Assembly: GCF_006476605.1 (NCBI RefSeq)
Contig: NZ_ML636802.1
Coordinates: 62,001 to 126,000, forward strand
Direction: 5' to 3'
Source: Brucella gallinifaecis
GTDB taxonomy: Bacteria; Pseudomonadota; Alphaproteobacteria; Rhizobiales; Rhizobiaceae
DNA length: 64,000 bases
Notes under the pieces: model-generated
The model's database searches: none
What the model was told of the DNA's origin: nothing
What the model saw: the letters and a program-made list of their open reading frames with translations, nothing else
Position numbers and translations under genes: made by a program
Part shown: positions 11,447 to 33,765 of the stretch, one piece after another
Numbering within the stretch: the stretch's first letter is position 1
Layout: each line of letters begins with the position of its first letter

Positions 11447-11476
11447 CGACATTCATTGTACAGTTCATGCAAGGTC

Positions 11477-12127
11477 ATGATTTCAGAACCCTCTCCAAAC
11501 TGTACAATCTGTCCCAGACTTCATGCTTTTCTTGAAGAGTGGCGGCGCAAAGAGCCTGAATGGCATAATGCGCCGGTTTCACCGTTTCTTCCTGCTCATG
11601 ATGATGATGTTCAGCTTCTGATCGTGGGTCTTGCGCCCGGATTGCGCGGCGCCAACCGGACCGGCCGGCCTTTTACCGGCGATTATGCAGGTGAACTTCT
11701 TTACAGCACATTATGCGAATTCGGTTTTGCATCCGGCCATTTTGAAGCCAGACCAGATGACAGCCTGAAACTCGTGGACGCGGGTATCGTCAATGCGGTG
11801 CGCTGCGTACCGCCTGAAAACAAGCCCGTGGGCAGTGAAATCAACAATTGCCGCCAGTTTTTCAGCCCCCTGCTCACGCATTTTAAAAACCTGCATGCTG
11901 TTGTCACACTCGGCACAATCGCGCATCAATCCACGGTGCGGGCTATGGGGGCAGCTGTCTCGCGCCATCCTTTCGGGCATGGCAGAGAGACGGACATTGG
12001 TGGCCTGCGTATATTCTCAAGCTATCATTGCTCGCGATATAACACCAATACGGGCAAGCTGACCGATCCGATGTTTCGGGATGTTTTCAGAAATGTACGT
12101 AGCTATCTGAATAAAAAAAGCGCCTGA
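11477..12127 (+). CDS. Uracil-DNA glycosylase, family 5 (UDGb-like), Fe-S type
   Basis: Excises uracil and related lesions from DNA. Family 5 signatures are GLAPGLRGANRTGRPFTGD in the N-terminal half and SSYHCSRYNTNTGKLT near the C-terminus. Four cysteines suit the structural [4Fe-4S] cluster: CTIC near the N-terminus, one in VRCVPP and one in NNCRQF. ATG 11477 is chosen because the upstream TTG alternative lacks a ribosome site. The terminator stem begins within its last codons. A second glycosylase, of family 4, lies at 34138. Confidence 0.88.
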   Translation: MISEPSPNCTICPRLHAFLEEWRRKEPEWHNAPVSPFLPAHDDDVQLLIVGLAPGLRGANRTGRPFTGDYAGELLYSTLCEFGFASGHFEARPDDSLKLVDAGIVNAVRCVPPENKPVGSEINNCRQFFSPLLTHFKNLHAVVTLGTIAHQSTVRAMGAAVSRHPFGHGRETDIGGLRIFSSYHCSRYNTNTGKLTDPMFRDVFRNVRSYLNKKSA

Positions 12128-30698: not shown

Positions 30699-31718
30699 AT
30701 GATGTCAAACACTCGCGACACAATTTCATTGACCCTGCTGATCGTCGCTGTTGTGGTATCAGTACCGCTGGTGCTGGGTTTTCTTGGATCAGCACATCCG
30801 ATATTCGATTCATTTGCGCATTTTCGGCCACAGCTCGCAATTCTGATGGGATTGCTGGCTCTGCCGCTTCTGTTCACGAGGATGCGGCGTGAGAGCATAA
30901 TGATCCTGCTGTTTGCCATCCTTGCTTTCAGCACAACATTGGGTACAACGCGCAATCTGCTCGACAGATCCACGTCTGCGCAGAGCAATGCGCCAACAAG
31001 CGGCGCCCGCTACAGTCTGGTACAGATCAATCTGCGCTATGACAATCCAGAACCAAAGCGCGTTTTGCAAATGATTGCCCACGAAAAGCCTGACATTATC
31101 ACCTATCAGGAAGCCGGCCCGGATTAGGCCATGTGGATCGATATTCTCAAAAGCACATATCCCTATCATTTTGAATGCCGCAAAAATGGAAGCAATATGG
31201 GAGTAGGTATTCTGTCTCGCCGTCCGTTCAGTGAAGGCAGTGAACAGGCCTGTCTGGGCGATGACCACCTTGCCATGACTTCAATCGATTTCAGCGGTAC
31301 AAGCGTCCATGTTGCATCCTATCATGCCACACTTCCATGGCCGTTCAATCAGGCAGCGATCATCGATGTGCTGGTGCCGGAATTGCAGAAATTCAATGGG
31401 CCTTCAATCATCGCAGGTGATTTCAACGCAACACCATGGAGCAATGCGGTCCATCGCATCGAAATGGCTTCGCAAACAATGGCAATGACTGGAATCGGCG
31501 GCACATGGATGCTCCAGAGTCTTCCGGTCACACTCGCGCCCTATGCCGGTCTGCCCATCGATCAGATTCTTGTAAGCCATGATATTGAAGCACCTGTTGC
31601 AGCTGTGCGTGAGGATGTGGGCTCCGACCACTTGCCTGTAAGGCTTGAGTTTTCAGTTCCGCTGCCAATACGTCCAGATACAGACGAGCCAGAAACGCAG
31701 TCAGTCATGCTCCAATAA
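30699..31718 (+). pseudogene. Endonuclease/exonuclease/phosphatase-family gene interrupted by an in-frame TAG
   Basis: Codons 1-142 (30699-31124) and 144 onward (31128-31718) are in the same frame, separated by a single TAG at 31125-31127. The first part has two or three membrane segments and then starts the EEP fold: YSLVQINLRYDN and DIITYQEAG. The second part holds the remaining catalytic motifs: IIAGDFNATPWS, PIDQILVSHD and VGSDHLPVRL. A TGG to TAG change would explain it, as EEP proteins often have W here. An ATG follows the TAG by one codon, so reinitiation is conceivable, but it would separate the catalytic residues. Otherwise intact, implying recent loss, suppression or a sequencing error. 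Confidence 0.82.
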
Positions 31719-31743
31719 AAAGGCGGTTTCAAACCGCCTTTTT
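31717..31743 (+). terminator. Terminator after the EEP gene
   Basis: A 12-bp perfect stem AAAAAGGCGGTT / AACCGCCTTTTT with loop TCA, overlapping the stop codon region, with T residues following. Confidence 0.88.
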
Positions 31744-31760
31744 CAATTATATGGATACGC

Positions 31761-32060
31761 AAACAGGCCTTCGCCGGCATTTTTTCACGGCGGGCGAGAC
31801 GGACACAGTTCCCATAAACATTACATGTTTACGTAAACAGGTCCTTCGCCGACATTTTTCACGGCGGTCGAGACGGACACAGTTCCCGTAAACATTACAT
31901 GTTTACGTAAACAGGTCCTTCGCCGGCATTTTTTCGCGGCGGTCGAGACGGACACGGTTCCCGTAAACATTACATGTTTACGTAAACAGGTCCTTCACCG
32001 ACATTTTTCACGGCGGTCGAGACGGACACGGTTCCCGTAAACATTACATGTTTACGTAAA
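31761..32060. repeat. Tandem array of about four 74-75-bp units derived from the 3' end of etf-QO
   Basis: AAACAGG/AAACCGG marks recur at 31761, 31835, 31909, 31984 and 32058, giving periods of 74, 74, 75 and 74. Units are about 90-95% identical. The fifth start runs into the etf-QO coding end: the final nine codons and stop of etf-QO (EGPVYVNM and TAA on the minus strand) are part of the unit. Each unit contains the palindromes GTTTACGTAAAC and GTAAACAT-TAC-ATGTTTAC. Units 1 and 3 share GGCATTTTTT and units 2 and 4 share GACATTTTT, suggesting duplication of a dimer. It is not a CRISPR: there are no unique spacers. Confidence 0.9.
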
Positions 32061-33765
32061 CCGGTCCTTCGCCGCCTTGTGGCGGAACCCAATTGATATT
32101 CTGGTTGGGGTCCTTGATGTCGCAGGTTTTGCAATGCACACAGTTCTGCGCATTAATCACATAACGCACATCCTTGGCCTGCGGGTCAGCAGCAGAATTG
32201 CCATCTGCATCCACCCATTCATAAACACCTGCCGGACAATAGCGCGTCGATGGGCCAGCAAAAACATCATGCTCAGATGTCTGTTGCAGCTTCATATCAG
32301 CAACCTGCAAATGTACCGGCTCGTTTTCGTCATGATTGGTATTGGACAAAAACACCGATGACAAACGATCAAAGGTCAGAACACCATCCGGCTTCGGATA
32401 GTCGATCTTCTTGTGTTTTGCGGCTGGCTCAAGGCTCTGCGCATCGGTCTTGCCGTGCTTCAATGTGCCGAAAAATGAAAAACCAAATAACTGGTTTGTC
32501 CACATATCAAACCCACCAAGCGCCACACCCATAACTGTCCCAAGCTTCGACCAGAGCGGCTTGACGTTACGGACTTTCTTGAGATCCTTGCCAATTGCAC
32601 TGTCGCGCCAGCTGTTTTCAATCTCGATCGGCTCGTCATTGGCACGACCGGCGCTCAAGGCTTCTGCAATCTTGTCGGCTGCAAGAATGCCCGACAGAAC
32701 CGCGTTATGGCTACCCTTGATGCGCGGTACATTGACGAAACCAGCCGAACAGCCGATCAGCGCTCCACCCGGAAATGACAGCTTGGGTACCGACTGGAAG
32801 CCGCCTTCTGTAATCGCGCGTGCGCCATAAGACAGACGCTTGCCACCTTCAAACGTATCGCGGATTGCAGGATGCGTCTTGAAACGCTGAAACTCTTCAA
32901 ACGGCGACAGATATGGGTTCTTGTAATTGAGATGCAGCACAAAGCCGACTGCAACCATATTATCTTCAAGATGATAAAGGAACGAGCCACCGCCGGTCTT
33001 CATATCAAGTGGCCAGCCAAAGGAATGCTGCACCAGACCAGCCTTATGCTTTGATGGATCAACCTGCCAGAGTTCTTTCAGACCAATACCGAATTTGGCT
33101 GGCTCACGACCTTCATCAAGCTTGAATTTTGCAATCAGTTCCTTGGTAAGCGAACCGCGCGCACCTTCACCAATCAGCACATATTTGCCCAGCAAAGCCA
33201 TGCCGCGTGTATAATTTGGACCATGCGTGCCGTCACGCTCAACGCCCATATCACCGGTCGCAACGCCGATTACAGCACCTTCATCATTATAAAGCACTTC
33301 GGTCGCGGCAAAGCCCGGATAGATTTCAACACCCAGCTCTTCAGCCTTGGTGCCAAGCCAGCGGCAAACATTACCAAGCGACACGATATAATTGCCATGA
33401 TTGCTCATCAGCGGCGGCATTGCGAAATTTGGCAAACGCACCGAACCCGCAGGACCAAGCAGCAGAAAATGATCATCGGTCACAGGGGTCTTGAACGGAT
33501 GCCCCTCTTCTTCGCGCCAGCCCGGTAAAAGCTGATCGATGCCGCTCGGATCAACAACGGCACCAGACAATATATGCGCACCGACCTCGCCGCCTTTTTC
33601 AAGAACGACGACTGAAAGCTCCGGGTTAATTTGCTTGAAACGGATAGAAGCAGCAAGACCTGCAGGGCCTGCGCCAACAATCACCACATCAAATTCCATG
33701 CTTTCACGTTCGGGGCTTTCGCGTTCAGAAAGTTCCGGATTCGCGATTGCCGGGGCGTCAGACAT
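32044..33765 (-). CDS. Electron transfer flavoprotein-ubiquinone oxidoreductase
   Basis: Membrane-associated enzyme (ETF-QO) that passes electrons from ETF, reduced in fatty acid and amino acid oxidation, to ubiquinone. The 573-residue protein has the FAD dinucleotide fold DVVIVGAGPAGLAASIRF near residue 26. A ubiquinone-binding central part includes FGWPLDMKTGGGSFLYHLED. The C-terminal ferredoxin-like domain has [4Fe-4S] ligands C510, C542, C545 and C548 (CPAGVYEW, then CVHCKTCDIKDP). It is full length. The last nine codons are also the seed of the downstream tandem array. Confidence 0.95.
   Translation of the reverse strand: MSDAPAIANPELSERESPERESMEFDVVIVGAGPAGLAASIRFKQINPELSVVVLEKGGEVGAHILSGAVVDPSGIDQLLPGWREEEGHPFKTPVTDDHFLLLGPAGSVRLPNFAMPPLMSNHGNYIVSLGNVCRWLGTKAEELGVEIYPGFAATEVLYNDEGAVIGVATGDMGVERDGTHGPNYTRGMALLGKYVLIGEGARGSLTKELIAKFKLDEGREPAKFGIGLKELWQVDPSKHKAGLVQHSFGWPLDMKTGGGSFLYHLEDNMVAVGFVLHLNYKNPYLSPFEEFQRFKTHPAIRDTFEGGKRLSYGARAITEGGFQSVPKLSFPGGALIGCSAGFVNVPRIKGSHNAVLSGILAADKIAEALSAGRANDEPIEIENSWRDSAIGKDLKKVRNVKPLWSKLGTVMGVALGGFDMWTNQLFGFSFFGTLKHGKTDAQSLEPAAKHKKIDYPKPDGVLTFDRLSSVFLSNTNHDENEPVHLQVADMKLQQTSEHDVFAGPSTRYCPAGVYEWVDADGNSAADPQAKDVRYVINAQNCVHCKTCDIKDPNQNINWVPPQGGEGPVYVNM

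Follow-up and report, generated by a model that had tools for sequence, protein, structure and literature searches.

The window, a stretch of 64,000 nucleotides of Brucella gallinifaecis DNA, carries on its minus strand the gene etf-QO (32044..33765), which was recognised from the open reading frame (ORF) list and encodes an electron transfer flavoprotein-ubiquinone oxidoreductase of 573 amino acids. The product contains the Pfam domains Fer4_ETF_QO and ETFQO_UQ-bd (PF05187, PF21162) and, according to the ORF translation, ends in GGEGPVYVNM*. Because the gene lies on the minus strand, the tandem array that adjoins it is located at its 3' side. TRF places the array at 31756-32074 with a period of 74 (4.3 copies, 93% matches) or 149 (2.1 copies), that is, as head-to-tail copies in the manner of a VNTR locus. 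The first-pass annotation had described about four tandem units, each carrying the last codons and the stop of etf-QO, and both statements hold: the units measure 74-75 bp, and the gene end reappears beyond the stop at +74, +149 and +223 and, in degenerate form, at +297. The exact unit number is provisional, since the assembly consists of 36 contigs.

Reading of related loci revealed the layout of the array as S-(S'-S)n, in which S stands for the last ~30 nt of etf-QO and S' for an imperfect reverse complement of the gene's own end. The flank of about 47 bases that had been assigned to each unit next to the coding end is thus an inverted copy of that coding end. All elements of the array lie on the minus strand. 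S1 (32044..32073), read from the sequence, comprises the last nine codons and the stop of etf-QO and forms the 5' arm of the hairpin on which selection appears to act; S'1 (32011..32043), assigned by folding and covariation as the imperfect reverse complement of S1, forms the 3' arm. Matches to an RNA model, R1, delimit hairpin units 1 to 4 at 32006..32076 (94.8 bits), 31932..32002 (78.7 bits), 31857..31927 (83.5 bits) and 31783..31853 (79.1 bits), and a copy search places the degenerate fifth copy of S at the array end (31747..31776). A dimer pattern proposed earlier is present in the sequence: units 1 and 3 share AAAAATGT and units 2 and 4 share AAAAAATGC, while in a second set of variants GAACC is common to units 1 and 2 and GAACT to units 3 and 4.

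Between the array and a convergent gene lies a terminator-like inverted repeat, AAAAAGGCGGTTTCAAACCGCCTTTTT (31717..31743, no strand assigned), which was recognised from the sequence, is conserved in relatives and was left unflagged by a terminator consensus scan (0 found in 31600-32200). The convergent gene, a member of the endonuclease/exonuclease/phosphatase family (30699-31718, plus strand), is split into two ORFs in the same frame (30699-31127 and 31131-31718), the second of which matches Exo_endo_phos only from profile position 62 onward; it may be a pseudogene or reflect a sequencing error. The unit core occurs four times in the genome, always within the array, and when the interval was compared with the whole genome at the DNA level, the array itself was the single match, with no second place. 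A dispersed palindromic repeat of the REP or RIME type was rejected on the ground of this single locus.

For the first unit of the window, folding predicts an S:S' hairpin of -39.5 kcal/mol (z -5.8, unmatched by any shuffle) whose three-base apical loop contains the stop codon. Because the opposite strand of this unit folds almost as well (-37.7, z -6.8), the window alone cannot show which strand matters; as its own first stem is free of G-U pairs, strand can be argued from the sequences of relatives only. An initial stem measure, in which pairs were walked outward in the MFE structure, gave a fraction of 0.04 for the window against shuffles and was dropped as a poor measure, since shuffled flanks often give similar values. 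In a comparison of 31600-32300 with Rfam, 5 matches were obtained at E values up to 1, none of which reached the gathering score, and the identities mir-30 and sraA, being sub-threshold matches, were discarded.

Evidence for the stem was obtained from a set of 210 distinct etf-QO ends. With the 5' arm fixed adjoining the stop codon and 8 pairs scored, at least 7 of 8 Watson-Crick pairs were found in 38 of the 210 loci, compared with 1.3 on average and 5 at most in 200 UTR-shuffled sets. The arms are built from many different words, such as CCCAACAT/ATGTTGGG, GTGAACAT/ATGTTCAC and GCCAATAT/ATATTGGC, and across 45 stem loci native arms match at 7.22 of 8 positions versus 5.89 when arms are swapped between loci (maximum 6.38 of 500). 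An alignment of 32 loci (28 with and 4 without a direct copy; 7 of the 39 listed loci were left out) was then used for covariation. De novo prediction with RNAalifold yielded 25 pairs, of which 9 changed on both sides. The named structure is paired in 93.5% of cells, a value inflated by the choice of all 32 rows for having the stem, and slid controls reach 31-50%. In the same rows, 80 double-changed cells were observed versus 21.8 after shuffling (0/500) and 9 pairs with a double change versus 6.2 (6/500). At the third position of a proline codon and its UTR partner, all four combinations GC, AU, UA and CG are found. Compensatory changes beyond the controls, the mark of a structured RNA, are thus present, and as judged from these alignments the hairpin is maintained by compensatory change in which synonymous codon positions vary together with the 3' UTR. 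Each unit had been credited with two palindromes; the one that spans the stop is kept by covariation, whereas GTTTACGTAAAC is not conserved in relatives.

The identity of the imperfect pairs discriminates between the molecules under selection, because a DNA palindrome has no reason to favour G-U over A-C on the coding strand. For this comparison, 44 loci were chosen by their direct copy alone, the stem being ignored, and the 166 loci without a copy served as reference. Six or more of the 8 pairs are Watson-Crick in 30 of the 44 loci with a direct copy and in 15 of the 166 without. Imperfect pairs in stems of at least 5 comprise 19 G-U, 2 A-C and 6 others in the copy-bearing loci, as opposed to 9 G-U, 21 A-C and 44 others in the 166 loci (Fisher p 1.7e-5; binomial p 2.2e-4 for 19 of 21), p-values that overstate independence because the rows share descent. 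In 20 further loci, 18 of them found by an RNA model that is itself tolerant of G-U, the copy carriers show 5 G-U, 1 A-C and 4 other pairs. The excess of G-U over A-C suggests that selection acts on the sense mRNA and not on a DNA palindrome, and the earlier idea of an array of protein-binding sites, which would be DNA dyads, fits less well with imperfect pairs that are G-U, not A-C, on the coding strand.

A difference between the first and the later units emerged from the same kind of count. The first hairpin contains 338 Watson-Crick, 20 G-U, 2 A-C and 8 other pairs, the later units 231, 19, 7 and 15, respectively. Non-pairing cells amount to 10 of 368 in the first hairpin versus 22 of 272 in the later units (p 0.003), and the latter still favour G-U (19 versus 7 A-C, p 0.03). 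Selection is therefore most evident for the hairpin that includes the coding end. A multi-hairpin mRNA 3' end, which had been suggested beforehand, is supported as far as the hairpin itself is concerned, but clear selection is seen on the first one and the later units are more relaxed.

The etf-QO region is present in all 35 genomes of the genus. Local alignment against shuffles (z >=4) detects a direct copy in 44 of the 210 ends, an inverted copy in 26 and both in 23. Carriers that use their own C-terminal codons occur in Pseudochrobactrum (L074), Paramesorhizobium (L125) and Allorhizobium (L071, L133); Rhizobium contributes L141 and, without direct copy, L068, and in Mesorhizobium (L138) the outer stem only is found. 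Model R1 was built from the 32 aligned rows. In the present genome its matches at E<0.01 are confined to the coding strand of the array, one for each of the four units, and its weaker matches (E 0.06 and 0.55) fall on the array's own reverse strand. In the family, R1 matches 63 of 394 Rhizobiaceae genomes and 28 of 109 genera, with members matching by construction and weak matches perhaps owing much to coding sequence; the other 331 sampled genomes gave no match under the stricter filters of the family and order searches, by which weak matches are lost. Among 297 genomes of the order, R1 matched only the present genome, a further two of its family and, in another family, L266 in G322. This last match is borderline (E 2.5e-4) and lies at an etf-QO end that lacks a direct copy and has a weak stem (6/8); it was left out of the carrier count.

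The control with other genes was limited to 51 ORF ends of the window plus 507 from the named loci, taken from a crude ORF caller that kept spurious overlapping ORFs and lost some etf-QO ends; within it, a direct copy scoring at least 18 was found at 8 ends, all of them etf-QO. Outside etf-QO, stop-loop stems with at least 7 of 8 pairs were also seen at one end in the window and account for 6 of the 11 ends of this kind in the named loci. At the end of a gene at 11456-12127 (plus strand), the stop codon is enclosed by a stem with 8/8 pairs, AAAAAAGCGC-CTGAAG-GCGCTTTTTA, that has the look of a terminator placed over the stop. As far as sequence comparison can tell, etf-QO has long carried the hairpin in many Rhizobiaceae. 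A recent expansion had been proposed for the array, and this applies to the copy number but not to the unit itself, which is old and present in several genera.

The number of copies is variable. In a set of 230 loci, at least 54 contain two or more full S copies (42 with 2, 8 with 3 and 4 with 4), ungapped counts that represent a lower bound, and within the 35 genomes of the genus gene-end copies range from none to the four of the window. Extra copies are scattered on a tree of the 3' 930 nt of etf-QO (41 rows, three contig-edge loci of the genus omitted). Two close relatives whose genes are 99.2% identical differ in copy number, as expected of a VNTR: G219 has 2 extra copies and G208 has 0, with a collapsed remnant of the unit retained in the latter. 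In L054, L060 and L143, one S is followed directly by the terminator-like repeat, a junction that would be the product expected from deletion between S copies. Within each lineage the gene-end copies are homogenised to the local coding end. The slippage-prone, labile locus envisaged in the first-pass annotation is supported by this variation among close relatives, and the expansion looks like a labile by-product.

Several peculiarities of individual loci were recorded along the way. A palindromic repeat of ~50 bp (GAGCATTTCCAGCAAAAGTGCG...), which presumably resembles the RIME-type rhizobial repeats, is inserted in the unit, where it occupies one of two loop positions of the hairpin: between S' and S2 in L035, L038, L039, L052, L056 and L058, and between the stop and S', in the apical loop, in L057 and L147, where the stem arms remain. 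A second etf-QO is carried by G219, G199, G210 and G222 (L148, L149, L150, L151, L041); L148 and L150 are without S', and L041 (G222) is identical to L149 (G199) over 930 nt, which suggests transfer between species. Both contigs of G212 concerned (L146, L147) start at the etf-QO end, so that the assembly breaks near this point. The etf-QO end of L144 is out of frame in a genome (G204) that is 69% complete, possibly by assembly error. A copied gene end is a hallmark of site-specific integration; this origin was rejected, as neither a recombinase gene nor cargo lies between the copies, which are set apart by no more than 44-52 bp of S' or, in some relatives, also by the ~50-bp repeat. An extended protein produced by recoding through the first stop was also rejected: the distance from stop to S2 varies (43-52 nt, or ~97-106 nt with the inserted repeat), and the reading frame is therefore not kept across the stop.

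Taken together, the unit is probably an old hairpin of the etf-QO mRNA that has been maintained by compensatory change and tandemly amplified in many lineages. Its 5' arm would be formed by the last ~10 codons, its apical loop by the stop codon and its 3' arm by the inverted coding end in the 3' UTR, and the unit of S' plus a new S would have been duplicated in many lineages, probably through slippage or unequal recombination between S copies. Since the final codons and the stop are the same in every S, the protein stays unchanged when a unit is gained or lost.

The most serious competitor, which we consider unlikely, is a DNA palindrome devoid of function, whose S' would have arisen by template switching, whose arms would be kept alike by template-switch correction and which slippage would have spread. 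A long quasi-palindrome combined with a direct repeat, copies homogenised to the coding end of each lineage and a labile copy number are all compatible with such a history. Correction should, however, be neutral to G-U and A-C, yet the first hairpin shows 20 versus 2; the loci without a copy display the opposite balance (9 G-U to 21 A-C), and the same S' bulges (GTC, A) are seen in several genera, where correction should have removed them. Even less probable is a ribosome-gated switch with a hairpin present at all times, in which S' would pair with S1 when this is free and with S2 while a ribosome occupies the stop. Both registers do fold (medians of -37.0 kcal/mol for S1:S' and -31.25 kcal/mol for S':S2 in 58 loci), and 25 of the 58 S':S2 folds reach z <= -3. 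The switch is given little weight because substitutions in S2, at paired sites where it differs from S1, break the pairing with S' in 40 of 71 cases and keep it in 31; these substitutions are moreover G-U in 28 and A-C in 19 instances, and the stem also exists in loci that have no S2 (15 of 166 at >=6/8).

An intrinsic, possibly bidirectional, transcription terminator would account for a stable hairpin at the end of a gene that faces a convergent one. In 55 loci with eight standard inner pairs, however, a T-run of 4 follows within 12 nt of the hairpin in a single locus and a separate terminator-like site lies within 450 nt downstream in 35; the element is therefore no ordinary intrinsic terminator. 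None was reported by the consensus scan of 31600-32200 either, and we regard this explanation as very improbable. Equally hard to credit is a 3'-UTR-derived small RNA whose S' would act in trans. In its favour, the S' core CCGTCTCGACCGCCG is recognisable across genera; against it, this core differs in Rhizobium-type loci (CCGCACGGACC), and the complementarity of S' is to its own gene.

For the mRNA hairpin, the anatomy, the covariation, the bias to the sense strand and the labile copy number are computed results, and it is inferred that the etf-QO RNA is made and folded as predicted. Stem-loops at 3' ends are established as protection of mRNA ends, and our best guess at the role is 3'-end protection once ribosomes have left: the hairpin would cap the mRNA against 3'-to-5' exonucleases while no ribosome terminates. 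As a counterpoint, a terminating ribosome should melt the first hairpin. A more speculative and rather doubtful extension is that a translation-gated element, tuned by tandem copies, is present at the 3' end of etf-QO mRNA in Rhizobiaceae. A terminating ribosome would melt the last codons; after the ribosomes are gone, the coding end would fold onto the 3' UTR, hide the stop in the loop and mark or protect the 3' end, and tandem copies would tune this effect with the protein untouched.

A stem built from synonymous positions and the 3' UTR implies that selection on RNA structure reaches into the ORF end of an ordinary metabolic gene. The natural variants, with no copy, a single copy, multiple copies or a loop insertion, represent a ready series for the study of stop-codon hairpin effects on mRNA stability, termination and decay in alphaproteobacteria. 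The array also illustrates that a seamless repeat spanning a stop codon can expand and leave the protein unaltered.

A literature search among open-licence papers retrieved no paper on a stop-codon hairpin of etf-QO, and comparison was made with three kinds of known system. Protective stem-loops at mRNA 3' ends are provided by REP-type elements and by the trimmed ends of Rho-dependent transcripts. Like the etf-QO hairpin, they are stable, lack a U-tract and stand at a gene end; REP-type elements are dispersed through the genome, whereas the etf-QO hairpin occupies a single locus and overlaps the stop codon. Bacterial VNTR loci share with the array head-to-tail units whose number varies among close relatives, but the etf-QO unit holds a covarying inverted copy of the gene end, and its gain or loss does not affect the protein. 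The nearest described kind appears to be the L17 downstream element, reported in the relevant passage as a structured RNA in potential 3' UTRs (Weinberg et al. 2010, PMC2864571); Rhizobiales-1, which that passage gives without Rfam accession, stands outside the comparison (PMC2864571). As described there, the L17 element is likewise a structured RNA 3' of one gene family that was found by covariation, and its authors also chose the strand by G-U pairs (PMC2864571). The coding 5' arm, the stop codon in the loop and the tandem amplification distinguish the etf-QO hairpin from the L17 element of that description.
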